This document shows positions 8,459 through 23,564 of a stretch of DNA of 24,432 nucleotides, one piece after another. The translations under genes were made by a program, and so were the position numbers. The stretch's first letter is position 1. Each line of letters starts with the position of its first letter. The notes below the pieces were generated by a model. It saw nothing but the letters and a program-made list of their open reading frames with translations, was not told where the DNA came from and ran no database searches. This DNA comes from a virus, in the IMG/VR virus record IMGVR_UViG_3300015360_000193, positions 1 to 24,432 of that record; one strand, 5' to 3'.

Positions 8459-8658
8459 GCGGTACCGTCCGTCCTCGAGCGCGGTAACGCTCCGTAGAGA
8501 TTATGGCGTAGGCTCCGTCCGGCCTAACGCTAATACGACACGCCCGAGACCTTAGCCCGTTCAGGGGGCCACCCCACAGAATCGGGGACGATCAGTGGAC
8601 AGATCATTCCCCATCGACCCTTTAGGGCCTTGTGCCTTGGACTTTCAGAGTTGGCTTG
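8459..8658. other. Gene-free stretch upstream of terminase with imperfect hairpins
   Basis: I see no gene here. An imperfect inverted repeat joins GGGGACGATC (8584-8593) to GATCATTCCCC (8602-8612) across an 8-nt loop, with a small internal bulge, and a short CCCTTTAGGG inverted repeat follows (8618-8627). On the minus strand a CATAAT -10-like hexamer lies about 40 nt before the terminase GTG, but no good -35 is visible. Packaging-site or leader functions are possible but unproven. Confidence 0.3.
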
Positions 8659-8856
8659 TTACTCTGTGTGAGTGTCTTTGGTCTTAGGTTGGTATGTCAT
8701 ATGAGTTTGGGATAGTCTGCGTCGTTGGCTTGGACTGTAGGCTATTGCTCTTGCTTGTTTGCGTCCTAGTCCTGTGTCTTGGAGCATCTGGGCTAGGTCT
8801 TTACGTGTGGTCCTGACCTCTTGCCTCTTGGCTCTTGTGTCTTTGGTGTTGCTCAC
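8659..8856 (-). CDS. Small basic protein, possible DNA-binding
   Basis: 65 aa when started at a GTG at 8856, which has GAGGA 10 nt in front; an in-frame ATG at 8883 has no ribosome site. It is very rich in Arg, Lys, Gln and Thr. A TRKDLAQMLQDTGLGRKQAR stretch could fold as a helix-turn-helix, but no family is recognised. The gene is less GC-rich than its neighbours, with codons such as AGA, CAA and ACA. Position between HNH and terminase is where a small terminase subunit would often lie, and a basic HTH protein could serve that role, but the sequence alone does not show it. Confidence 0.4.
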   Translation of the reverse strand: MSNTKDTRAKRQEVRTTRKDLAQMLQDTGLGRKQARAIAYSPSQRRRLSQTHMTYQPKTKDTHTE

Positions 8857-8883
8857 TTGTCCGCCGTCCTCGCTCGTATGCAT

Positions 8884-10042: not shown

Positions 10043-10084
10043 ACCAAGCGAGGGTAGCCGCATAGCGCGCTAGCACCGTACCGC

Positions 10085-10811: not shown

Positions 10812-10860
10812 TGATTGACGTGGTATCGTCCGTAGACGAACTAGAGGAAGGTTGCCCGAT

Positions 10861-11922
10861 ATGCTAGCGCTAGATCACTTTGCGGGGCCGGGGGGATGGA
10901 GCCTAGCGTGCGAGCGCTTGGGTATCCTCGAGGACGGCGTAGAGATTGACGAGACGGCCGTAGCCACCCGTACGGCCGCTGGCTTTAGCACCATCGGCCG
11001 GGACGTACGTACCTCGCCGGTTACGATCCACGATCTTTACATAGCGAGCCCGCCGTGCCAGACCTTTAGCGCGGCCGGTTCAGGTAGCGGTAGGAAGGCC
11101 CTAGACGCCGTTCTAAGCGCCGTAGACGCCTTCCGAGGGCCGGAGGACCAATGGCCCACCTACGAGGCTCTGACGGCTCTCCTAGGCGACGAGCGTACCG
11201 CGCTCGTACTCGTGCCCTTGCGCCATATCCTGACCGAGCGACCTAGGTACGTGGCCCTTGAGCAAGTGCCTACGGTGCTGCCCGTGTGGAAAGCCATCGG
11301 CGCGGTACTTGAGGAATACGGCTATGACTGGCAGGCCGCGAACCTATCCGCCGAGCAATACGGAGTGCCCCAAACGCGCAAGCGGGCCGTACTCGTGGCC
11401 TCACGCGTAGGCCCTGCCAACTTGCCTATGCCTACTCACTCGAAGTATTACTCGAGGTCACCCGAGCGCGTAGACGCTGACGTAAAGCCTTGGGTATCTA
11501 TGGCGGAGGCCCTAGGGTGGACCGCGCCTACCCCGGCTTCCGGCCTACGCCTTCCACGCTGGCCAGAGGCCGAGCGGGAAGCCTTTACCGAGCTAGGCCA
11601 AGAGCGTACGTACCAAGCGGAGGTAGCCGAGGACAAGCCTTGGACGCGCTCAAGGCCCGCCACGACGATAGCCACCCGTGACCTAGTGGCGGACCCTGGC
11701 GCGAACGCTAACCGCTTTAACGGGGCCACGAAGAGCCGTAACGATGGCGTACGGGTGACCGTGGCCGAGGCCGGGGTATTGCAGTCCTTCCCCGCTGACT
11801 TCCCGTGGCAGGGGTCCAAGACCAAGCAATATCAGCAGGTAGGTAACGCTATCCCGCCGCTCTTGGCCGAAGCCGTGCTCTCGGCTTTGCTAGAGCTTGA
11901 CCTAATCATGTTCGGCAGATAG
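10861..11922 (+). CDS. DNA cytosine-5 methyltransferase
   Basis: 353 aa from the ATG at 10861, preceded by GAGGAAGG 8 nt upstream; a TTG at 10852 is also in frame. It moves methyl from SAM to C5 of cytosine. Visible motifs are I (DHFAGPGGWSLAC), IV with the catalytic Cys in SPPCQTFS (C66), VI as ALEQVP (E134; Gln replaces the usual Asn of ENV), VIII (QYGVPQTRKRAVLVA) and X (VGNAIPPLLAEAV). Length and order fit PF00145. No restriction enzyme lies next to it, so it is probably an orphan methylase protecting phage DNA from host restriction. The target-recognition stretch is between about 200 and 290; the target cannot be told. Confidence 0.93.
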   Translation: MLALDHFAGPGGWSLACERLGILEDGVEIDETAVATRTAAGFSTIGRDVRTSPVTIHDLYIASPPCQTFSAAGSGSGRKALDAVLSAVDAFRGPEDQWPTYEALTALLGDERTALVLVPLRHILTERPRYVALEQVPTVLPVWKAIGAVLEEYGYDWQAANLSAEQYGVPQTRKRAVLVASRVGPANLPMPTHSKYYSRSPERVDADVKPWVSMAEALGWTAPTPASGLRLPRWPEAEREAFTELGQERTYQAEVAEDKPWTRSRPATTIATRDLVADPGANANRFNGATKSRNDGVRVTVAEAGVLQSFPADFPWQGSKTKQYQQVGNAIPPLLAEAVLSALLELDLIMFGR

Positions 11923-14720: not shown

Positions 14721-15053
14721 ATGGGATTCTTTGACGAGTACCAGGACACTTCCGCGGGAAACTGGGTCAAGGCGGAAGGCAAGGCCGACCTTATGGAGAG
14801 CGGCACACCGTTTACGGTACGCTCGTGCTCTCTCGAGGACACCGAGCGCTTCGGAGAGCGCTACCGGCTCGAGGTCACTTTGGTAGATGGTGAAGAGGCC
14901 CTAATGGGCTTCGGAGCGGGCTCGGTCGATTCACGAGACCGTATGCTCGACGCTATGGCTAAGTACCTCGAGGATGACAAGGCAGCAAAGCCTATCGTAG
15001 TCCTTGAGAAAAACGGCCGAAGCCAGATCCTTAGGGCTTTCGACCCGGCGTAA
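14721..15053 (+). CDS. Small replication-module protein, possibly ssDNA-binding-like
   Basis: 110 aa, ATG at 14721 with AAAGGA 10 nt upstream. It starts MGFFDEYQDTSAGNWVKAEG and has a beta-rich centre (PFTVRSCSLEDTERFGERYR, LEVTLVDGEEALMGFG), followed by a charged helical part and a C-terminal RSQILRAF. The strand pattern resembles small OB-fold or ssDNA-binding proteins that phages place between recombination nuclease and primase genes. No clear SSB motif is seen, so the family is left open. It ends just before a strong hairpin. Confidence 0.55.
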   Translation: MGFFDEYQDTSAGNWVKAEGKADLMESGTPFTVRSCSLEDTERFGERYRLEVTLVDGEEALMGFGAGSVDSRDRMLDAMAKYLEDDKAAKPIVVLEKNGRSQILRAFDPA

Positions 15054-15068
15054 CGTCTAGCGCTAGTG

Positions 15069-15099
15069 CGGGGTATCGGCTGAGAAAGTCGGTACCCCG
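15069..15099 (+). terminator. 10-bp hairpin before the primase-polymerase gene
   Basis: CGGGGTATCG (15069-15078) pairs with CGGTACCCCG (15090-15099), with one G-U pair and an 11-nt loop. It sits 16 bp after the stop of the 110-aa gene and 33 bp before the prim-pol start. No T-run follows. It may be an attenuator, a processing site or a terminator without a U-tract. Confidence 0.5.
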
Positions 15100-15132
15100 T
15101 GCTATCTCAAGACTCTACGGAAGGTACACACT

Positions 15133-16719
15133 TTGACTATGCTAGAGCACGCGCTCAAGTACGCCAGTCTTGGTATCGCGGTCTTTCCCTGCCGCCCTGA
15201 CAAGTCCCCGATAACGCCGCATGGCCACGAGGACGCTAGTACCGGCGTAGACGTGATTACGGCGTACTGGGCTCGTGACCCTGGCGCCCTCATAGGTGGA
15301 GCTATCCCGCGCGGATACGTAGTGATCGACTTGGACCCGCGTAACGGCTCGGACGAGACCGTAACGGCTCTAGCCAGCCTAGGGGTGAAGTTTCCGCCCA
15401 CGCTTTCGGCTCTGACTGGCTCCAAGGGCCGGCATAAGTGGTACCGGATTAGCCCCCAAGTGGAGCTTAAGGGTACCGCTGGGCTTGGTATCGACGTTAA
15501 GAGGCACGGCAAGGGGTACGTTATCCTTCCGCCCTCGGTATCGGACGCCGGACCTTATCACTGGCAGCAGGGCGAGCCAGACTTCCCCAGGGCTAAGAGG
15601 CTGCCAGAGGCAGCTCGAGCGTACTTGACGAAGCGCGAGGTAGCAGAGCGGCGCCCCGCTGACTTCACACCTACGCGCCGGCCGGACTGGCTTAAGGCTA
15701 CGGCTTACGGTGACTCAGCCCTCGCTAATCAGGGTAGGGCCATCCTGGCCGCAGTCGATGGAGAGCGTAACAACGTCCTTAACTCTGCCGCGTTCGGTAT
15801 CTATCAGCTCGCGCATGGGGGCGAGATAGACGAGGATTACGCGTCAGAGTTTTTAGCCGAGCTAGCCGAAGAGGTAGGGCTCTCTAAGCGTGAGATAAAG
15901 CGGACTCTTAAGAGCGCCTACGAGGCCGCGGCCGACGATCCTAGGGCAGCGCCACCCGTAGACCCGGCCAAGCCGTCAGAGAGCCTCTCAGAGCCTTTAG
16001 AGGGCCACTTTTGGACGGACTGGCAAGTAGAAGAGGCCGCGCCACCTTTCTATCTCTACCCACTACTACCCAAAAACGCGTACGTACTAGTCTACGGAGC
16101 TACCGAAGCGGCTAAGTCTATGGTATGGAAAGCCCTGTTAACTCAAGCCTCCCATTATGGCATACGCTCGAGCGTCTACTCTCTCGAGAATCCGGCGCAC
16201 GTAGACCGGGAGAGGCTCAGGCGCCTAGGGCCGGACCCGGCTAACTTCCGCATATCGCACGCCGGCCTAAACTTGGCCGACTTTGCCCAGGCCGAGGCAC
16301 TCGTTACGCGTGAGCAAGCGTGGCACACTGACGTAATCCTCTTGGACACGTATTCTCACGCGTTCGCTTCTAGGTCCGAGGACGGTAACGCGAAGGCTAT
16401 AGCCTTTTCTAAGCTAGTCCGTTACATCATGGCCGAGGTAGGGTGCTCGGTAGTCGTGATTGACCATACCGGGTACATGCAAAAGGAAGAGCCGCGGGAC
16501 GCAAGCGCGAAGAGGCAGGCGGTAGACGTTGCTATCCTTATGGAGAAAGACGGAGCTTGGTCTAAGGGCTCGCCGGCACGGTTCAGGATGAGCAACTATA
16601 AAGCGGCGAGGTTCGCTAACCCGTTTTACGAGGTCCGCGGCGCCGTAATCGACACGGACAAAGGTGGCCTAGCCCTTGACTGGCTAGATAAGGACTTTTC
16701 GGAGGGGTGGCAGGTATGA
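15133..16719 (+). CDS. Bifunctional primase-polymerase with RecA-like helicase domain
   Basis: 528 aa. TTG at 15133 is chosen because GGAAGG lies 8 nt in front; an ATG two codons later would be 14 nt away. The N-terminal prim-pol (PF09250-like) has GIAVFPCRPDKSP, the catalytic VIDLDPRNG (D66, D68) and GSKGRHKWYR (H101). Residues about 195-265 (GERNNVLNSAAF to LKSAYEAA) look like a primase C-terminal domain. The C-terminal ATPase has a Walker A loop GATEAAKS (322-329) with Ala instead of Gly before Lys, Walker B DVILLDTY (D405), and SVVVIDHTGY (D444-H445), as in RepA/DnaB-type proteins. It should prime and unwind DNA at the phage fork. Its stop overlaps the next start by 4 bp. Confidence 0.88.
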   Translation: MTMLEHALKYASLGIAVFPCRPDKSPITPHGHEDASTGVDVITAYWARDPGALIGGAIPRGYVVIDLDPRNGSDETVTALASLGVKFPPTLSALTGSKGRHKWYRISPQVELKGTAGLGIDVKRHGKGYVILPPSVSDAGPYHWQQGEPDFPRAKRLPEAARAYLTKREVAERRPADFTPTRRPDWLKATAYGDSALANQGRAILAAVDGERNNVLNSAAFGIYQLAHGGEIDEDYASEFLAELAEEVGLSKREIKRTLKSAYEAAADDPRAAPPVDPAKPSESLSEPLEGHFWTDWQVEEAAPPFYLYPLLPKNAYVLVYGATEAAKSMVWKALLTQASHYGIRSSVYSLENPAHVDRERLRRLGPDPANFRISHAGLNLADFAQAEALVTREQAWHTDVILLDTYSHAFASRSEDGNAKAIAFSKLVRYIMAEVGCSVVVIDHTGYMQKEEPRDASAKRQAVDVAILMEKDGAWSKGSPARFRMSNYKAARFANPFYEVRGAVIDTDKGGLALDWLDKDFSEGWQV

Positions 16720-16973
16720 CCATAGTAGACATATGTCCCGTAAACGGTTGCGACTTACGCGGTGACCCGATAGACCCTGAGTACGCGGACTACTACGCCG
16801 AGGGTGCGCGGTACTACTCCAAGATGATCGGCGTAGAGGTCCAAGGGGTCTACGATGGCGTGCTCTACTGGACTTGCTCTACCTGTGGAGTGAGCTGGCC
16901 AAGGTTTGACGCGCCCCATAGGCTCCACTACGAAGCGCTTAAGTACGTAGGCGTAGCCTGCCGCTGCCCATGA
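16716..16973 (+). CDS. Cys-rich zinc-binding miniprotein
   Basis: 85 aa from the ATG at 16716, which has GGAGGGG 8 nt upstream and overlaps the prim-pol stop (ATGA). N-terminal CPVNGC and later WTCSTCGVSWPRF give two Cys pairs about 45 residues apart, a zinc-ribbon layout. The YSKMIG and WPRF elements are seen in small actinophage proteins of unknown role. It overlaps endonuclease VII by 4 bp, so the two are probably translated together. Confidence 0.65.
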   Translation: MTIVDICPVNGCDLRGDPIDPEYADYYAEGARYYSKMIGVEVQGVYDGVLYWTCSTCGVSWPRFDAPHRLHYEALKYVGVACRCP

Positions 16974-17323
16974 CTAGGCTTAAGCGCCTCCAAGCCGAGG
17001 CCGACAAGCGCGGCGTAGTCCAGCCTAGGCCGGCAACCGTGGCCAAGTACGGGTGGACGCTCGAGGACTGGCTAGGCCAGCTCGAGGGTAACCGCTGGCG
17101 TTGCCCGATATGCCTACGAGCTCCGAGGACCGGCAAGTACGTCACTGACCACGAGCACGTAAGAGGCTGGGCAACCATGCCCGACGAAGAGCGTAAACTT
17201 TACGTTAGGGGCTTGACTTGCTGGACGTGTAACCGTTACCTTTTGGCTAGAGATATCAGCGTAGCCACCGCGCGTAACGTGGTAAGCTACCTTGAGACCT
17301 ACGACGCCAGGAGGCCAAAGTAA
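16970..17323 (+). CDS. Recombination endonuclease VII
   Basis: 117 aa, ATG at 16970 overlapping the upstream stop. It resolves branched DNA such as Holliday junctions before packaging. The signature is CPICLRAPRTGKYVTDHEHV (first Cys pair plus D-H-x-H), then VRGLTCWTCNRYL (second Cys pair and Asn), as in PF02945. The upstream TLEDWLGQLEGNRWRCPIC is also usual for the family. Length is typical of the stand-alone phage form. It is the last gene with the normal base composition before the atypical block. Confidence 0.92.
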   Translation: MTRLKRLQAEADKRGVVQPRPATVAKYGWTLEDWLGQLEGNRWRCPICLRAPRTGKYVTDHEHVRGWATMPDEERKLYVRGLTCWTCNRYLLARDISVATARNVVSYLETYDARRPK

Positions 17324-17325
17324 AC

Positions 17326-17697
17326 ATGAGTGCATACACCGAGGACGACGTAACCCTCGCACGACAGGTAGGCTACGACTTAGGCTACGACGATGGCTAC
17401 AAAGATGGCCGGCTCGATGGCTTGAGCGAGGCAGTAGGGGCAGTCAGGCGGGTGCAGTTCTCGCCCGAGCCGCCGCTGGCTAACACTGTGCGGGCAGCAA
17501 CGCTCCGAGTGGGTGACCGCTTTATGGCCGAAACCCCCGACGAAACCTTCCCAGCGTCACTGAGGGCCCACTTCGGCTGGGGAATGGTGCACGGATGTAT
17601 GGACTGGCAGTGCGCCCGTGAGGACGGAACGGAGTTCGTCTACTCCATCCACATCGACGCACCAGTGACACTGATTGAGGAAGGTGACAAGGCATGA
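17326..17697 (+). CDS. Probable chimeric small protein at the left edge of the atypical block
   Basis: 123 aa, ATG at 17326 just after endonuclease VII, with AGGAGG 11 nt upstream. Residues 1-37 are acidic and Gly/Asp/Tyr-rich (DLGYDDGYKDGRLDGLSE) and use GTA, CTC and CGA codons like the phage. From about residue 40 the style changes to GTG/GTC/CTG-rich codons, with an unrelated second half (LRVGDRFMAETPDETF, FGWGMVHGCMDW). A recombination joint inside the gene is inferred from this; neither half is recognised. It overlaps the next start by 4 bp. Confidence 0.55.
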   Translation: MSAYTEDDVTLARQVGYDLGYDDGYKDGRLDGLSEAVGAVRRVQFSPEPPLANTVRAATLRVGDRFMAETPDETFPASLRAHFGWGMVHGCMDWQCAREDGTEFVYSIHIDAPVTLIEEGDKA

Positions 17698-17882
17698 GCT
17701 CGTCATACGAGCTGGCCCCCGCGGGAGAGGTTTTTATGGACGGTAAGGCTACCTACTATCTTCGGCGCATCGGCTCGCCGGGTATCGCCGGGACCATCTT
17801 TCTTACGCCTGAGCACGCCACCGCGCTAGCCCAGCAGTTGCGCGCAGGGCGGATCAAACCACAACCACCAACAGGAGAATAA
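17694..17882 (+). CDS. Small hypothetical protein
   Basis: 62 aa, ATG at 17694 overlapping the upstream stop, with a strong GAGGAAGG 9 nt upstream. A beta-hairpin-like pattern (EVFMDGKATYYLRRIGSP, GIAGTIFLTPEHA) precedes a helix (ATALAQQLRAG). No motif recognised. It still contains one CTAG, so it may be native or near the joint. Confidence 0.5.
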   Translation: MSSSYELAPAGEVFMDGKATYYLRRIGSPGIAGTIFLTPEHATALAQQLRAGRIKPQPPTGE

Positions 17883-17886
17883 TCAG

Positions 17887-18129
17887 ATGCCAGTACGAGT
17901 GCAACCAACAGACGCCGACGCCATCATCTTTGACTCAGCCACCAGGTGGTACATTGACGACGAACGACAGTTGCATATCGTCGATGGTGCGGGAGCCCCT
18001 GTTGCCGCTTTCTCTGTCAACGCTTGGCAGTCAGTTCAGAAAAAGGTAGGCGCCCTTGTTTTTGGTCACCCTGACCAAAGTAGGGGTGCATCCGACAGTG
18101 ATACCGCGCAATCGGATACCCGCCCGTGA
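17887..18129 (+). CDS. Small hypothetical protein
   Basis: 80 aa, ATG at 17887 with AGGAG 9 nt upstream. The centre is strand-rich and polar (AIIFDSATRWYIDDERQLHI, VDGAGAPVAAFSVNAW); the last 20 residues are Ser/Asp/Thr-rich and disordered. No motif recognised. Its stop overlaps the next GTG start (GTGA). Confidence 0.5.
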   Translation: MPVRVQPTDADAIIFDSATRWYIDDERQLHIVDGAGAPVAAFSVNAWQSVQKKVGALVFGHPDQSRGASDSDTAQSDTRP

Positions 18130-18620
18130 CAAGCCCTCCCGGCCACTCGAGCCGTCTCGGCCCCGCACGCTCAGTAACCGCCGAGTTTAGAGAGGGTGCG
18201 GCCGATCAAGTAACCGTGACTGTCGTCCTCACCTACGACATCTGGTGCTGCAACGGCACACACGAGCTAGCAGACGCGGCGGCTGCCGTATCTGCACTAC
18301 TGAACCAAGACTTCGCAAACGTGGGCGGTGGCGGGGCACCCCCAGAACCACCGGCGGGGGGAGATCAGGGCCTAGCACCCCTAGCTCCTCCCCCCTCCGG
18401 TGTCTACCGCCTGACCGCCGCCCTCCCCATCACCACCGGACAAGTCAAACTGGTCAACGTCCTCGCCGCCGGTGCCGCCATCACTGACCGTGCCCTCCTA
18501 CACGAAGGGATCTCGAAACTGATAGGGCGGGAAGTGCACAGCGTCAAACACCTCACCAAAGCCGAGGCCACCACAGTCATCGAGTCGCTACAGACAAGGC
18601 AACCGAAGGAGGCATCGTGA
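18126..18620 (+). CDS. Hypothetical protein with a phage-type C-terminal helix motif
   Basis: 164 aa, GTG start at 18126. Residues 20-60 are beta-rich (DQVTVTVVLTYDIWCCNG) and a Gly/Pro-rich linker lies at about 65-90. The end reads HEGISKLIGREVHSVKHLTK then AEATTVIESL. This ISKLIGRxVxSxxxLTKAEAxxVIxxL pattern ends many actinophage proteins, including some recombination or ssDNA-binding ones, as I recall. The rest is not recognised, so no function is assigned. It carries the last two CTAGs of the block (18372 and 18380). Confidence 0.5.
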   Translation: MTSPPGHSSRLGPARSVTAEFREGAADQVTVTVVLTYDIWCCNGTHELADAAAAVSALLNQDFANVGGGGAPPEPPAGGDQGLAPLAPPPSGVYRLTAALPITTGQVKLVNVLAAGAAITDRALLHEGISKLIGREVHSVKHLTKAEATTVIESLQTRQPKEAS

Positions 18621-18934
18621 TCCGCCCCGTTGACGCTTGGGAGTTGGTCTGCGACTGGCCCGAGTGCGAGAGCACTGCCGATGACGGCTACAACACCATC
18701 TACGCCGACAATCCGTATGACCCCGGTGAGATTGCGGAGTACGCCGACTGGCTCACGTCGAAAGACGGGGCCAGCCACTACTGCTGGGAGCATCCGACGA
18801 CGCGGGCCAGCGACCACACCGGTGGCTTAGCGCTCCCCGATCCGCCGTACCTGCTCATACACGAAGGCGACACCGACAATCCGGTGATGGATGACGGCAG
18901 CGTGACGCTGGTTGAGGATAGTGACGGGGCATGA
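18617..18934 (+). CDS. Cys/His-rich small protein
   Basis: 105 aa, GTG at 18617 with AAGGAGG 4-5 nt upstream, overlapping the previous stop. CDWPEC near residue 12 and HYCWEH near residue 55 form a C-x4-C and C-x2-H pair that could hold zinc, a layout common in actinophage miniproteins. The rest is very acidic (YADNPYDPGEIAEYADW; DDGSVTLVEDSDGA). Function unknown. Its stop overlaps the next start by 4 bp. Confidence 0.55.
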   Translation: MIRPVDAWELVCDWPECESTADDGYNTIYADNPYDPGEIAEYADWLTSKDGASHYCWEHPTTRASDHTGGLALPDPPYLLIHEGDTDNPVMDDGSVTLVEDSDGA

Positions 18935-19056
18935 GGCGACTACTGACAATGTTCTACACGCGCAAGTGCGACGGCAAGTGCGGGAATGAGAGTGGTCATA
19001 ACGCACATCTGACGTGGCTTGGGCGTCGTCGGTACACCCGACCGGCTGGGTGGTGA
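18931..19056 (+). CDS. 41-aa Cys/His miniprotein
   Basis: ATG at 18931 overlaps the preceding TGA (ATGA), and the frame closes at TGA 19054-19056. The product begins MRRLLTMFYTRKCDGKCGNE and has C-x3-C, then SGHNAH and a basic tail (GRRRYTRP). The overlap, the Cys pair and the packed context support a real gene. No function can be given. Confidence 0.45.
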   Translation: MRRLLTMFYTRKCDGKCGNESGHNAHLTWLGRRRYTRPAGW

Positions 19057-19062
19057 CAGGGC

Positions 19063-19275
19063 ATGAGTGACTGGACCGACGACGCACCGATTATCCCGCT
19101 GGACCGCGAACAATGGGGCATTGTGATAGACGCGCTGATCGAACATGCGGCCAGCGCTGCCGCTCGAAAGCACGTCAACCCTGAGTCAACTTCCGACGTT
19201 CGGGTCACTATGTGTAACGACCTGATTAGCCTGCTAAACGGCCGGCTGGGGAGTTCTGGTTCTCCGAGAGGATGA
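19063..19275 (+). CDS. Small acidic helical protein
   Basis: 70 aa, ATG at 19063, 6 nt after the previous stop. Contains PIIPLDREQWGIVIDALIEH followed by an Ala-rich helix, then DVRVTMCNDLISLLNGRLGS. No motif recognised. The end overlaps an ATG at 19272, but the next gene probably starts at 19278. Confidence 0.45.
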   Translation: MSDWTDDAPIIPLDREQWGIVIDALIEHAASAAARKHVNPESTSDVRVTMCNDLISLLNGRLGSSGSPRG

Positions 19276-19277
19276 AA

Positions 19278-19517
19278 ATGAGCGCGGATAACTACTGGTT
19301 GGTTGTTGCCCACCCAGATGGTGACGGATTTACCTACTGTATGCGGTTTGCGTCAGACGACACACCACACGACCCGTCTGCGTTGCCGCGCAATATGACC
19401 AAGTACGACACAAGGGCTGATGCTGTCGAAGCTGCGGTACTGGATGATGCCTACACCGAGTACGGCCCGGTCATTCACGTTGACATTCGTCCCCGTCGAG
19501 AAGGATGGACATTATGA
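19278..19517 (+). CDS. Small hypothetical protein
   Basis: 79 aa from the ATG at 19278, which has GAGAGG 6 nt upstream; the ATG at 19272 is in frame but abuts that site. Starts MSADNYWLVVAHPDGDGFTY, then MRFASDD, and later YGPVIHVDIRP. An alpha/beta pattern with many Asp residues; no family recognised. Its stop overlaps the next ATG (ATGA). Confidence 0.5.
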   Translation: MSADNYWLVVAHPDGDGFTYCMRFASDDTPHDPSALPRNMTKYDTRADAVEAAVLDDAYTEYGPVIHVDIRPRREGWTL

Positions 19518-19798
19518 ACTACACGCACGCCGATCTGCTGGCAGGAGCGCAGGAGGGGCGGGAGCGGGCCAAGGGCGACCCCTACGGGTCGATCAAGGCT
19601 GAGCAAGCCCGCGATGACCACGCCGATGACCTGGCCGCGACGCTGGACCGGCACAAGCCAATCAGTCCACCGGCCTACCCCGCCTGGTACCCCGCCTGGT
19701 GCGCCGGGTGCGACCACCTTTGGGACGAGTGCCCCGACGCCATCCAGGTGGCCGACCGGCTGACCGTGTGGGGCGTGCTCGATGGTGACGGAGCATGA
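19514..19798 (+). CDS. Small Cys-containing hypothetical protein
   Basis: 94 aa from the ATG at 19514 (AAGGA 8 nt upstream, ATGA overlap); an ATG three codons earlier is less well placed. The N-terminus is helical (LLAGAQEGRERAKGDPYG). The middle has PPAYPAWYPAWCAGCDHLWD, with a tandem PAWYPAW and a C-x2-C, and a third Cys follows in DECPDA. Zinc binding is possible; the function is unknown. Confidence 0.5.
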   Translation: MNYTHADLLAGAQEGRERAKGDPYGSIKAEQARDDHADDLAATLDRHKPISPPAYPAWYPAWCAGCDHLWDECPDAIQVADRLTVWGVLDGDGA

Positions 19799-19800
19799 GA

Positions 19801-19962
19801 ATGAGGGTCACCTTCACAACGACGATTGACGAAACTGATCCGGGCGATCCAGCCGATCTCGACAACCTGGTTGATGCCCTATGGGATGTGGCAACGGCAC
19901 ATGGCGCCTACGACCACGGGGGATTCTCCGGTCCCGATGATGGGGGTGACCGAGATGACTGA
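19801..19962 (+). CDS. 53-aa acidic miniprotein
   Basis: ATG at 19801 with GGAG 7 nt upstream; an ATG at 19795 overlaps the previous stop but is too near that site. The product starts MRVTFTTTIDETDPGDPADL, then a helix and a Gly/Asp tail, closing at TGA 19960-19962. It is very acidic, and a DNA-mimic or decoy role is only a thought. No family recognised. Confidence 0.4.
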   Translation: MRVTFTTTIDETDPGDPADLDNLVDALWDVATAHGAYDHGGFSGPDDGGDRDD

Positions 19963-20137
19963 CTACGGCCCCACCGCCGTCTACGAGTGCTGCCGACTGT
20001 GGACCGTTTACACGCTCTGGCCTATCGGACGCTGCGGTGGATGTGGACAACGACCCGAGTGGAAGGCAGCCGAGGAAGCATCGCCCGTTGCCGATGCGTT
20101 TGATCGCCAGTTTACGGCATGGATGGAGTGGCGATGA
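19955..20137 (+). CDS. Small Cys-rich protein
   Basis: 60 aa from the ATG at 19955, with GGGGG 8 nt upstream. The frame extends upstream to 19826, but that part overlaps another gene. YECCRLWTVYTL and RCGGCGQRPEW give two Cys pairs for a possible zinc site; the rest is helical (AFDRQFTAWMEW). The stop overlaps the next ATG. Function unknown. Confidence 0.5.
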   Translation: MTDYGPTAVYECCRLWTVYTLWPIGRCGGCGQRPEWKAAEEASPVADAFDRQFTAWMEWR

Positions 20138-20340
20138 GTGACCTACCGTTCAGCTGCCCTAAGTGTGGGCAGCGGTACGGGTTCGGTGACGCCGCCGCAC
20201 TCATCGGGGTGGTCAGGTCAATCCCATTCACCGATACACCCACGCCGTGCTGCGGGACTCTGGACAGCGGCACCCTGACGCGCAGGGACGACGGGGCAGT
20301 GGTGCTGCAATCAGACCTACTGGGAGAGGTTCTGCTGTGA
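20134..20340 (+). CDS. Small zinc-ribbon protein
   Basis: 68 aa from the ATG at 20134 (GGAG 5 nt upstream, ATGA overlap). CPKCGQRYGFGDA near the N-terminus and TPCCG in the middle make a C-x2-C plus CC zinc-ribbon pattern; a strand-rich C-terminus (GAVVLQSDLLGEVLL) follows. The stop overlaps the GTG of the methyltransferase fragment (GTGA). Confidence 0.55.
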   Translation: MSDLPFSCPKCGQRYGFGDAAALIGVVRSIPFTDTPTPCCGTLDSGTLTRRDDGAVVLQSDLLGEVLL

Positions 20341-20576
20341 CCGTCGAGCCCTACTACCAGGACGAGTCCGTCACCCTGTACCACGGCGACTGTCTGGAGT
20401 CTATGGCGTCGATGGATTCAGCTTCTTTCGACCTAATCTTCACGTCCCCTCCCTACAACCTCGGGGTCGGCGGCCACTTCCCGAAGCCGAACGGGAGGAG
20501 GGGACTGTGGGACGGCGGCGCGCTGCGCGATGGCTACGCCGACCACCGCTCCGCTAATCAGAGAGGCAGGCGAAAA
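20337..20576 (+). pseudogene. Truncated DNA methyltransferase, in frame with polymerase A
   Basis: 80 codons from a GTG at 20337 with a strong GGGAGAGG 7 nt upstream. SVTLYHGDCLESM, then FDLIFTSPPYNLG, is the start of an amino-type (N4-cytosine or N6-adenine) methyltransferase whose motif IV is SPPY. The family continues for another 150-200 residues to the SAM-binding FxGxG motif, which is absent here. After DGYADH the sequence turns into RSANQRGRRK and then, with no stop, into polymerase A. Methylation activity is not expected from this piece. It is either the N-terminal extension of a fusion protein or a dead remnant at a recombination joint. Confidence 0.8.
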
Positions 20577-22454
20577 GTGACGTACGAAGTCCTAGACATA
20601 GAAAACGTAGGCGAGCCCCACGAGGGCCGGCTAATATGCGTCGGCCTCGGAGACCGCGCCTACGTACCAAACGGCCCCGGCTGGCAAGACTGCCTAGACC
20701 GGCTCGCTAACCCCGATATCGGAAAGATCGTCTTTACCAAGCACGATCACCGCTACCTACTGCTGGCCGGCTACGAGGTAAACGGGCCGATAGTTGACGC
20801 TCAAGCTATGGCATGGGTAGTAGACGAGCGGACAGACCTAGACCTAGCCACCCTGAGCCAGCTCTACGTACCTCACACCGTCAAGCGCTCCCGTATCAAA
20901 AGCAAGGCCGGAGTCATTGTCTTTGAGTGCGATAACGGAGAGTGGCTACCGCTCGAGGACGCGCCCATAGACGAGGTATGCGCCTATAACGTCCAAGACC
21001 TCAAGAGCACCGAAGCGCTAGCCCTCGAGCTCAAGCGGATTATACGTTTTGAGGGCCTAGCAGACTACTACGAGCACGACGTATTACCCTTTACCGAGGT
21101 ACTCGTTAAGGCCGAGGTACGAGGTCTGCCTATCGACCTCCCCCAAACAGTAACGCTACGCGAGCGCCTCGAGGAAGAGGCGGACTACTACGAGTATCGC
21201 CTACGCGCCGAGGGTGGCCTACCCGAAGAGTTTAACCTTAATAGCGCCACGCAGCTAAGCGCCTACCTTTATAACCGTACCTACACTTTCGAGCGCCGGG
21301 TAGAGGTCTCAAAGGAAGAGCGGGGAGCCCTCAAGGCTCGGCTAGCCAGCGGGGAGACCGTAGAGCTGGCCGGGATGACACTAGAAAAGGTAGGGACCAA
21401 GTACGCCACCGGCTCGGCCAGCCTGCCGGGTCTAGGCTTGAGCACCGAGACCGAGACTGATCGTGGCCAGAAGTCCACAAGCGCTAAGGTACTCCGAGTA
21501 GAGCAAGAGCACCCGTGGGTAGACCTCTTGCTCGAGCGGGCCAAGCGCGTAACCGTTGCCGGCTACCTGGCAGGCTTCGAGAAAAGGACCGTGGCCGGCC
21601 GCGTATACGGCCGCTTTAACCAGACCGGGACCAAGACCGGCCGGCTTAGCTCTTCCTCCCCGAACCTCCAAAACGTACCGGCGCGGGGAGACCTAGGAAG
21701 GGCCTGCCGGGAGCTTTTCAGGCCAGAGCCGGGTACTGGCTTTTTACACGGGGACTACGGCCAGCTCGAGCCACGGCTTATGGCCCACTTTTCGTGTGAT
21801 CCGGCCCTAGTTTCGATCTTTGACGAAAAGGATGACATATACCTACGTACCGCGGTTATGCTCTGGGGCGACACGCTACCGGAGGGTGCTCGAAACGTAT
21901 GTAAGGTGCTCGTGCTGGCCCTTGGCTATGGCTCCGGCGCCGAGACTTTGCACCGGCAGCTTGCCGAGGCTGGCTTTCGCTTCCCGTTGCACGAGGTAGA
22001 GACCATGCTTGCGCGCCTTAAAGGGGTCTACGCGCGGCTCTTCGAGTGGAAAGAGGACGTGATAGCCACCGCGGCCAACGAGGGCTACGTAGAGACCCTG
22101 GCAGGCCATAGGCGCCGCTTTAGCAAGCGCCACGAGCGCCACCGCGGGGAGAGCTGGCGCCAGCAGGCTGCGGACGAGCGGCAGGCCGTAAACGCCGTCA
22201 TTCAGGGGAGCGCTGCCGATATCGTCGGTAGGACCATGATGGCCGTAGACAGGGAATACGGGGAAGAGCTTAGGCTCTTGGCCCAGGTCCATGATGAGCT
22301 ACTCTTAGAGTATGACGTAAACCCCGAGCTTGACCCTATCTGCTACGTATATAGGCTACAGTGGCTGGCAGAGTCGGGCCACGGCTTTAAGCTACGGGTA
22401 CCGCTAGAGTTTATCCCCAAGGTAGTACCGACTTGGGCCGAGGGTAAGGACTAA
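20577..22454 (+). CDS. polA: DNA polymerase A with 3'-5' exonuclease domain
   Basis: 625 aa from the GTG at 20577 (AGGCAGG 6 nt upstream); the frame stays open upstream into the methyltransferase fragment. The N-terminal exonuclease has LDIEN (D7, E9), a KHDHRYLLLAGY Exo II-like region, VDAQ (D74) and YNVQD (Y137, D141). No 5'-3' exonuclease domain is present. The polymerase has motif A HGDYGQLEPR (D393), an O-helix RNVCKVLVLALGYG (R439, K443, Y451) and motif C QVHDELL (H572, D573). The O-helix residue equivalent to E. coli Phe762 is Leu447. It should copy the phage genome with the prim-pol helicase. Composition returns to phage style at this gene. Confidence 0.93.
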   Translation: MTYEVLDIENVGEPHEGRLICVGLGDRAYVPNGPGWQDCLDRLANPDIGKIVFTKHDHRYLLLAGYEVNGPIVDAQAMAWVVDERTDLDLATLSQLYVPHTVKRSRIKSKAGVIVFECDNGEWLPLEDAPIDEVCAYNVQDLKSTEALALELKRIIRFEGLADYYEHDVLPFTEVLVKAEVRGLPIDLPQTVTLRERLEEEADYYEYRLRAEGGLPEEFNLNSATQLSAYLYNRTYTFERRVEVSKEERGALKARLASGETVELAGMTLEKVGTKYATGSASLPGLGLSTETETDRGQKSTSAKVLRVEQEHPWVDLLLERAKRVTVAGYLAGFEKRTVAGRVYGRFNQTGTKTGRLSSSSPNLQNVPARGDLGRACRELFRPEPGTGFLHGDYGQLEPRLMAHFSCDPALVSIFDEKDDIYLRTAVMLWGDTLPEGARNVCKVLVLALGYGSGAETLHRQLAEAGFRFPLHEVETMLARLKGVYARLFEWKEDVIATAANEGYVETLAGHRRRFSKRHERHRGESWRQQAADERQAVNAVIQGSAADIVGRTMMAVDREYGEELRLLAQVHDELLLEYDVNPELDPICYVYRLQWLAESGHGFKLRVPLEFIPKVVPTWAEGKD

Positions 22455-22458
22455 GACT

Positions 22459-23028
22459 ATGCCACCTACACTACCGCGTATTGCCGTCGATCTTGACGGA
22501 GTGGTCTACGACTGGGGCGGTACTGTCCGCTATCTGATCCGAGAGCACCACGGTATAGACTTGCCTGTCTCCGATCACTGGGACTACGTAGAGGAAAACG
22601 TACCGCCCGAGGTCTGGCGTTGGCTCTGGACGGAAGGCGTAGAGCTGGGGCTCTTCCGCTACGGCCACCATATCAAGGGCTCGGTAGACGGCTTGAGAGA
22701 GCTGGCTAAGGTAGGCTCCCTCGAGGTAGTGACACACCGGCCGCGCGCAGCGCTCCAAGACACGCTACGTTTTATCGCTAACCTGCCGGACGTTTTCGCC
22801 GGCGTCCACTTCCTGACGAAGAACGAGCCTAAGAGCATCGTACGCGCCGATCTGTACCTAGACGATGCTCCGCACGTTATCGAAAACGTGCTAGACTTCG
22901 GCGCTTCGGCGGTAGTCTTTGACCAAGAGTGGAATCAGTACGTAGACGGTAGAGCGTTTCGAGCTCACGGCTGGCTAGAAGTGCCGATCATGGCAAAGCT
23001 GGCCCTATCTTTGGGAAGAGGGGCGTAA
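22459..23028 (+). CDS. 5'(3')-deoxyribonucleotidase-like HAD phosphatase
   Basis: 189 aa, ATG at 22459 with AAGGA 9 nt upstream. The HAD motif I is AVDLDGVVYDW (nucleophile D11, D13), motif II LEVVTHRP, and motif IV DLYLDDAPHVIE. The overall layout fits the NT5C family (PF06941), which removes phosphate from deoxynucleoside monophosphates. Beside the diphosphohydrolase and polymerase it probably alters the host dNTP pool. Its stop overlaps the next ATG by one base. Confidence 0.85.
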   Translation: MPPTLPRIAVDLDGVVYDWGGTVRYLIREHHGIDLPVSDHWDYVEENVPPEVWRWLWTEGVELGLFRYGHHIKGSVDGLRELAKVGSLEVVTHRPRAALQDTLRFIANLPDVFAGVHFLTKNEPKSIVRADLYLDDAPHVIENVLDFGASAVVFDQEWNQYVDGRAFRAHGWLEVPIMAKLALSLGRGA

Positions 23029-23564
23029 TGGCAGAGGAAGAGGTACGCGTAACCTCGAGCACGGGAGGCCAGAAAGGGTCCAAGGGTGCCAGGTATGACC
23101 TTATTCCTACCGCGCCGCTCGAGGCTCTAGCCCGCCACTACGGCAAAGGGGCCGCTAAGTACGAGCAAGTTAACGGCCGGGATAACTGGCGTAACGGCTA
23201 CGAGTGGTCTCTATCCTACGCCGCCCTGCAAAGGCACCTAGCCGCGTTTTGGAGCGGAGAGGACATAGACGAAGAGACCGGGAGCGCGCACCTAGTAGCG
23301 GCCGCGTGGCACGCGTTTACGTTGCTCGAGTTTATGGAGCACTATCCCGAGCTGGACGACAGGCAAGACCTACTCTACGAGCTCGGCCCTTGCGACTTTG
23401 CCGCCAGCCAGCCTCGCGTATCTGTAGGTGTTTTGCTCGAGCCTGGGAGCGACTACCGGCAGCCGTCCGAGCGCCACGACGCTAAGACACTGACGCCGCC
23501 GATGATCGGAACGCCGCGCCAGGAATCGCACGGGCTCGCGGCTAAGTGGGCCGGCCGTGGCTAA
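23028..23564 (+). CDS. dATP/dGTP diphosphohydrolase-like protein (PF18909 family)
   Basis: 178 aa, ATG at 23028 (TAATG). The N-terminal SSTGGQKGSKGARYDLIPTA is followed by LEALARHYGKGAAKYE, NGRDNWRNGYEWSLSYAALQ, RHLAAFWSGEDIDEETGSAH, and a LVAAAWHAFTLLEF helix. This is the full pattern of the phage family once called DUF5664, now named for dATP/dGTP diphosphohydrolases. The last 60 residues are extra and unstructured. In phages with 2-aminoadenine DNA a related enzyme (MazZ) makes dGMP for base synthesis. No purZ is seen in this window, so a general pool-shaping role is safer. Confidence 0.8.
   Translation: MAEEEVRVTSSTGGQKGSKGARYDLIPTAPLEALARHYGKGAAKYEQVNGRDNWRNGYEWSLSYAALQRHLAAFWSGEDIDEETGSAHLVAAAWHAFTLLEFMEHYPELDDRQDLLYELGPCDFAASQPRVSVGVLLEPGSDYRQPSERHDAKTLTPPMIGTPRQESHGLAAKWAGRG

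Follow-up and report, generated by a model that had tools for sequence, protein, structure and literature searches.

A probable horizontally acquired block of small early genes between endonuclease VII and polA in a TpA-rich phage record

IMG/VR virus record IMGVR_UViG_3300015360_000193 is linear, has 24,432 bases and 59.8% G+C, and is analysed here in its entirety (the window). On its plus strand the genes for recombination endonuclease VII and the family A DNA polymerase (polA) are separated by a block of approximately 3.2 kb of small, tightly packed genes (Table 1); the rest of the window is referred to as the core. The block holds 12 complete open reading frames (ORFs) of 41–164 amino acids and one truncated gene; a first-pass annotation, made from the letters alone, had given the same size range for about eleven genes. 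As it had also described, these genes are joined by ATGA or GTGA overlaps: nine of the 12 junctions are 4-bp overlaps of this kind, when ATG 19514 is taken as the start of the 19505 ORF, and the remaining three are an overlap of 8 bp and gaps of 4 and 6 bp.

Table 1. Positions of the block, its genes and repeats, and the neighbouring genes, in window coordinates
Feature	Position	Strand	Remarks
Inserted block, ~3.2 kb	17318..20555		left edge within 17318-17550, right edge ~20547-20576
Terminase, portal, protease and major head protein genes		minus	
C5-methylase, sigma-like gene, exonuclease genes, primase/polymerase-AAA, endonuclease VII, block, polA		plus	
Deoxynucleotidase and dATP/dGTP diphosphohydrolase genes		plus	listed after polA
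Recombination endonuclease VII (HNH), left neighbour	16970..17323	plus	PF02945, E 7.7e-9
ORF, 123 aa	17326..17697	plus	weak phrog_4785, E 0.0015; no match in phages
Repeat copy 1	17679..17698	plus	ends on ATG 17694
ORF, 62 aa	17694..17882	plus	ATGA overlap; no family found
ORF, 80 aa	17887..18129	plus	PADLOC matches only at E 0.008 and 0.009
ORF, 164 aa	18126..18620	plus	Gly/Pro linker; C-terminal segment weakly like phage RecT tail
ORF, 105 aa	18617..18934	plus	GTGA overlap; single-sequence structure model uninformative
Repeat copy 2	18916..18935	plus	ends on ATG 18931
ORF, 41 aa	18931..19056	plus	two Cys; no Pfam match
Repeat copy 3	19048..19067	plus	ends on ATG 19063; upstream stop inside copy
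ORF, 70 aa	19063..19275	plus	
ORF, 81 aa	19272..19517	plus	phage family phrog_16893 (function unknown), E 1.2e-7
ORF, 97 aa	19505..19798	plus	3 Cys; 94 aa from ATG 19514, giving ATGA overlap
Repeat copy 4	19780..19799	plus	ends on ATG 19795
ORF, 55 aa	19795..19962	plus	acidic
ORF, 60 aa	19955..20137	plus	CxxC pair (YECC...CGGCGQ); no Pfam match
ORF, 68 aa	20134..20340	plus	CPKC motif and second CC, zinc-ribbon-like; sub-threshold zinc-finger match, E 0.024
Truncated amino-group DNA methylase, N-terminus	20337..20576	plus	TSPPYNLG motif; phrog_67, E 5.4e-15
polA, family A DNA polymerase, right neighbour	20577..22454	plus	natural start GTG 20577; PF00476, E 1.2e-68

The window had no near match among 50,697 phage records, and one close relative was found in IMG/VR, IMGVR_UViG_3300049489_000593 (39,178 bp; G001 below), with 74% identity in the terminase, 70% in the head protein, 57–59% in polA and 70–71% in endonuclease VII. 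In G001 the endonuclease VII stop lies at 10070 and the polA start at 10073, 2 bp apart, versus 3.25 kb between the two genes in the window, and none of the block proteins has a match in G001. Since the relative carries endonuclease VII directly next to polA, the block is an insertion by comparison with it; the synteny comparison across this interval that the first-pass annotation had proposed therefore shows the block missing from the only close relative. Further, all four distant actinophages fetched, which have a family A polymerase, carry just one or two small genes between primase and polA.

The right junction of the block is precise and the left one less sharp. On the left, endonuclease VII is 71% identical to its counterpart in the relative and similarity stops at the residues RRP, one codon before the stop; the edge lies at this stop or up to 230 bp from it. 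On the right, the ORF of polA opens upstream at 20247 and 59% identity to the relative begins at GTG 20577, from residue 2 on. Between them lies the truncated methylase, which the first-pass annotation had not mentioned and which forms the right edge of the block. Searched by tblastn, the fragment matched 284 phage records, led by those of Mycobacterium (206), Arthrobacter (37) and Gordonia (36). Alignment with four full-length phage methylases of approximately 205–290 residues showed that its similarity is lost after about residue 70 and that the C-terminal part, which binds S-adenosylmethionine, is missing. This similarity ends approximately 30 bp before the polA start, in a stretch with a plausible ribosome-binding site, so that the right edge falls between methylase residue 70 and GTG 20577. 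The fragment is in frame with polA, an arrangement expected by chance in one case of three, and a methylase–polA fusion protein is possible. The longest word common to the two junction neighbourhoods has 5 bases, and there is thus no extended homology between them.

The block also differs from the core in composition, and the scan that the first-pass annotation had called for found a step in TpA usage, in codons and in a segmentation of the window. The rho value of TpA is 1.53 for the core as a whole, 1.51 to the left of the block and 1.61 to the right, versus 0.80 within it; CpA/TpG is under-used in the core (rho 0.71, and ~0.70 on either side) and stands at 1.15 in the block, both block values being ordinary. 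All 21 of the 1-kb core windows have a TA rho of at least 1.20. The reported shift in codon style was borne out, with GTA making up 40% of valine codons in 20 core genes and 3% in 18617–20576, and CTG making up 14% and 57% of leucine codons respectively. An unsupervised two-state hidden Markov model (HMM) set apart 17484–20515 and 8562–8869 from the rest of the window, and the dinucleotide distance between block and core is 241, whereas none of 57 equally long core segments exceeds 107. Change-point likelihoods are almost flat across 17400–17550 on the left and 20400–20560 on the right; the best left change-point, at ~17483, lies inside the first small ORF, which may therefore be partly native, its first part belonging to the core. 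The second stretch in the block-like HMM state, 8562–8869, covers most of a 74-aa minus-strand ORF and is possibly another small foreign insert.

A further property of the block is a 20-nt repeat with a consensus near RGTGACRRRGCATGAG. Its four copies, one in the left part of the block and three in the right, each end on the ATG start of a gene and have no more than one mismatch; allowing up to three mismatches there are seven matches in the window versus 0.88 expected. The upstream gene reads through the repeat in three copies and has its stop codon inside the copy at 19048, which indicates that conservation is of the nucleotides. As a probe for a donor in IMG/VR the repeat returned 71 stretches, none with more than two near copies, where a rough estimate of the chance expectation is ~70.

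It was the lack of CTAG that had drawn attention to this region, and the CTAG-free stretch of about 2.2 kb is real. The window has 154 CTAG sites and none between those at 18381 and 20592 (18385–20591), a start-to-start spacing of 2211 bp by comparison with 782 for the runner-up; the longest gap in any of 300 simulations of the window with an order-2 Markov model was 1779 bp, and the 95th percentile 1284 bp. The flanking observations were likewise accurate, with 12 sites counted in polA (20577–22454; some 13 had been seen by eye) and only four in 17324–18384. The block is nevertheless wider than this gap, and the gap itself had been read the wrong way round. Over 17324–20576 there are four CTAG sites versus 9.4 by the block's own order-2 expectation, a mild shortage, whereas in the core CTAG is roughly twice as frequent as base composition alone predicts (120 versus 62.8 left of the block and 30 versus 14.0 right of it). 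The CTAG contrast is a by-product of the over-use of TpA in the core; and as G001 has only 20 CTAG in 39 kb, it is the CTAG-rich core that is the compositional oddity and not the block. An absent tetranucleotide may therefore signal unusual surroundings rather than an unusual segment.

Taken together, the absence of the block from the relative, the compositional step, the truncated actinophage-type methylase and the repeat confined to the block support the proposal that the segment is foreign, if not that it was taken whole, as its last gene is cut; neither of the two results that the first-pass annotation had named as refuting was obtained. Among 122 loci, moreover, the block signature is nearest to that of Gordonia phage BritBrat (distance 65). 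We consider it very probable that the block was acquired horizontally as a module of early genes, recently inserted from an actinophage-like phage and read with the replication operon. In the ancestor, polA would have directly followed endonuclease VII, and two non-homologous joins would have placed ~3.2 kb into their boundary; the donor would be an actinophage-like phage with an ordinary base composition, and the segment part of its early region, of right-arm type. The right join would have severed the donor methylase after ~70 codons just ahead of the polA ribosome-binding site, a position that left neither neighbour damaged. The small genes would retain the tight overlaps and start-associated repeats of the donor and would most likely be transcribed and translated within the replication operon, as the block has no conspicuous promoter or terminator: one promoter-like site was found (shuffles 0.7; sigma-70 consensus only) and, on the minus strand, one site resembling a terminator (shuffles 2.5). 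Insertion would be recent relative to the process that made the core TpA-rich, because the block has not acquired that signature.

Several observations weigh against this account. The left edge is not sharp, a change-point at 17326 being worse by 3.1 nats than the best one at 17483. Four of the 12 block proteins were searched for individually in the phage collection without a match and hence without indicating a donor; the DNA search for a donor matched only five records, over ~50 bp of the methylase; and links to phages come solely from the methylase fragment and phrog_16893, the donor genome not having been found in these searches. At a distance of 170, the left part of the block (17324–18390) is nearer to the core than the right part is (277); left and right are 116 apart, so that two successive acquisitions are possible. 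On that alternative the left part (17324 to ~18390), which also has all four CTAG sites, and the right part (to 20550) would be nested insertions from different donors. We regard this as unlikely, given that the start-associated repeat is found in both parts (17679; 18916–19780), that TA rho is ~0.7–0.8 across both parts beyond 17824, and that the signatures of such short segments are noisy.

Both joins are, moreover, known from this one record alone. It is metagenomic and comes without reads, a gene is truncated at one of the joins and our searches turned up no further contig carrying the block, all of which would fit an assembly chimera in which DNA of a second phage from that sample was misjoined into the contig. 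Such an artefact would need two independent misjoins at the same 2-bp boundary that left both neighbours intact and kept the direction of the operon, with words shared between the junction neighbourhoods shorter than any assembly overlap, and we find it very unlikely.

Finally, with a single close relative, the choice between gain and loss hangs on composition and on the cut methylase. Conversely to an insertion, the block could be ancestral and have been lost by G001 and other phages, its small genes having escaped the process that changed the core; the single relative and a gene-poor comparison set leave room for this. The pooled intergenic DNA of the core (1706 bp) also has a high TA rho (1.61), and so the process reached beyond selected genes; the cut in the methylase coincides exactly with the polA boundary; and, as above, none of the four distant actinophages has such a block. 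Ancestry of the block is accordingly highly improbable, and acquisition from an actinophage-like phage is the reading we retain.

The first-pass annotation had also suggested that a block of Cys-rich mini-genes might be a host-takeover or anti-defence cassette. A few of the genes are indeed rich in cysteine (e.g. 19955–20137 and 20134–20340), the rest of the block is not. phrog_16893 is the only clear family among the complete block genes, and this 81-aa protein had no tblastn match in phages and no close relative in IMG/VR. The C-terminus of the 164-aa protein has 36% identity over 59 aa to a RecT-like protein encoded by prophage prophi62-3 (E 4e-5 in a pairwise comparison, only 0.045 when 197 loci are searched), and the protein had no match in the phage collection; nor was any match found in phages for the zinc-ribbon-like protein, queried from ATG 20119. 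Small unknown genes in an early operon beside replication genes, some with CxxC pairs, are what a cassette selected for anti-defence or host takeover might look like. Scans of the block with PADLOC, NCBIfam, Pfam and PHROGs, however, found no counter-defence homologue and no above-chance match to known defence families: NCBIfam gave no match for the 10 proteins scanned, and PADLOC gave two chance-level matches, both to one protein (Table 1). Structure predictions for two block proteins had confidence scores (predicted local distance difference test, pLDDT) of 48 and, for the 105-aa protein, 36, too low for a fold search; and such small unknown genes are common in actinophages, as seen in five annotated regions fetched. 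A role of this kind as the reason for the presence of the block therefore seems doubtful to us.

The TpA-rich signature of the core is rare among the loci compared. In 82 loci, mostly from a terminase scan, the top TA rho was 0.96, and after enlargement with genome and actinophage loci the maximum among 122 was 0.98. Following a scan for a TA-rich word, four of 303 loci not from the window exceeded 1.2, in a set partly chosen for such words. All these counts include several overlapping loci of one relative. Six of seven TA-rich loci examined had no detectable protein in common with the window and the seventh, L044, was a terminase hit. Among high-TpA phage contigs, L216, L254, L245 and L278 had no detected protein in common with the window; L216 and L254 have 9–11 CTAG per kb. 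In the core itself AAAT/ATTT is almost missing (two on the plus strand versus ~15.6 expected from order-2 counts), and AATT is absent (0 versus 6.9).

Codon preference as the sole cause of the TpA excess was rejected: TA is enriched across codon boundaries (470 versus 247 in synonymous shuffles) and between genes. Where the pyrimidine third position of a two-fold codon precedes A, T/(C+T) reaches 0.65 (110/168) in the core, as against 0.33 (16/49) in the block and 0.01 (1/154) in the relative. At those four-fold sites of the core that are followed by A, T rises to 0.49 and C, G and A stand at 0.23, 0.17 and 0.10, versus 0.31–0.45, 0.20–0.37 and 0.09–0.21 before other bases; all three drop by a roughly similar factor, and TTA remains rare (3% of leucine codons), whereas simple C-to-T change would lower C alone. 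This weakens the case for CpA-specific cytosine deamination, for instance via the C5-methylase encoded at 10852–11922. Z-DNA (2-aminoadenine) was rejected, with PurZ (PF00709) found in neither the window nor G001, both possibly incomplete, as against 14 of 14 control genomes, and with normal TA rho values in the Z-phages phiVC8 (0.66) and S-2L (0.59). The dGTP/dATP diphosphohydrolase (PF18909) is also present in the relative, which has no excess. A limited open-licence search of the literature on TpA over-representation in phages found nothing relevant. We tentatively raise the possibility, to which we give low odds, that the core was reshaped by a process at work throughout the genome, directed at the DNA sequence and not at codons, and favouring TpA over CpA/TpG; candidate causes may be a modified base, pressure from a nuclease or from restriction, or mutation or repair with an unusual spectrum. 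If so, the inserted block, having come too late for reshaping, would serve as a natural before-and-after control. Were the cause of the TpA excess found, insertions in such phages could be dated by their dinucleotide profiles.

Elsewhere in the window, PF18909 (dATP/dGTP diphosphohydrolase-like, 23028–23564) and PF06941 (5'-deoxynucleotidase, 22459–23028) occur in swapped order in the relative, and a counterpart of the C5-cytosine methylase (PF00145, 10852–11922) was not detected there. G001 encodes a thymidylate-synthase-family protein (locus L003, positions 14858–15712), in a part of the genome beyond the end of the window, whose best solved match is a cytidine monophosphate (CMP) 5-hydroxymethylase; it has Asp where thymidylate synthases are known to carry Asn, and is a candidate (d)CMP hydroxymethylase. 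No tRNA genes were found in the window. A search for the host by alignment of primase, polA and terminase with genome contigs gave no close relative, the 30 resulting loci matching mostly the N-terminal primase/polymerase part at 28–55% identity.

The accepted explanation for joins of this kind, as set out for mycobacteriophages in the portion of PMC3029335 consulted, is non-homologous exchange near gene boundaries. The block resembles mosaic module exchange as described there in that a segment present in one genome is missing in a relative, is joined at gene boundaries without extended homology and leaves its neighbours functional, as judged here from sequence; it differs from exchange of a single gene in having 12 genes. 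The same excerpt defines a moron as an additional gene with a promoter and a terminator of its own on its flanks; like a moron, the block is extra DNA between genes that are adjacent in the relative, and unlike one it has many genes and no standout promoter or terminator of its own. Start Associated Sequences, reported for cluster K mycobacteriophages (PMC3203893) and cluster EF Microbacterium phages (PMC7302621), are likewise short repeats directly upstream of several starts in the early region and in one orientation. In the extracts of those reports they read GGGATAGGAGCCC and GGGAAAGGACCCC, with an AGGAG core and at least 10 copies per genome, whereas the block repeat, RGTGACRRRGCATGAG, lacks AGGAG, overruns the start codon and has only four copies.

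The methylase fragment shares the N-terminal PYYQDxxVTLYHGDC...TSPPYNLG of full phrog_67 methylases such as Corynebacterium phage Bran gene 64 and Gordonia phage BritBrat gene 76, and unlike these keeps only the first ~70 residues. In Bran a train of small overlapping genes precedes the related methylase, as in the block, which shows how the donor region may have appeared. The block provides a clean multi-gene mosaic insertion, both of whose joins can be placed from a relative, from composition and from a cut gene. It departs from the usual mosaic module in its unusually strong compositional contrast, owing to the rare TpA-rich signature of the recipient; the insertion is a fresh example of a well-known process, and it is the TpA-rich core that stands out more.

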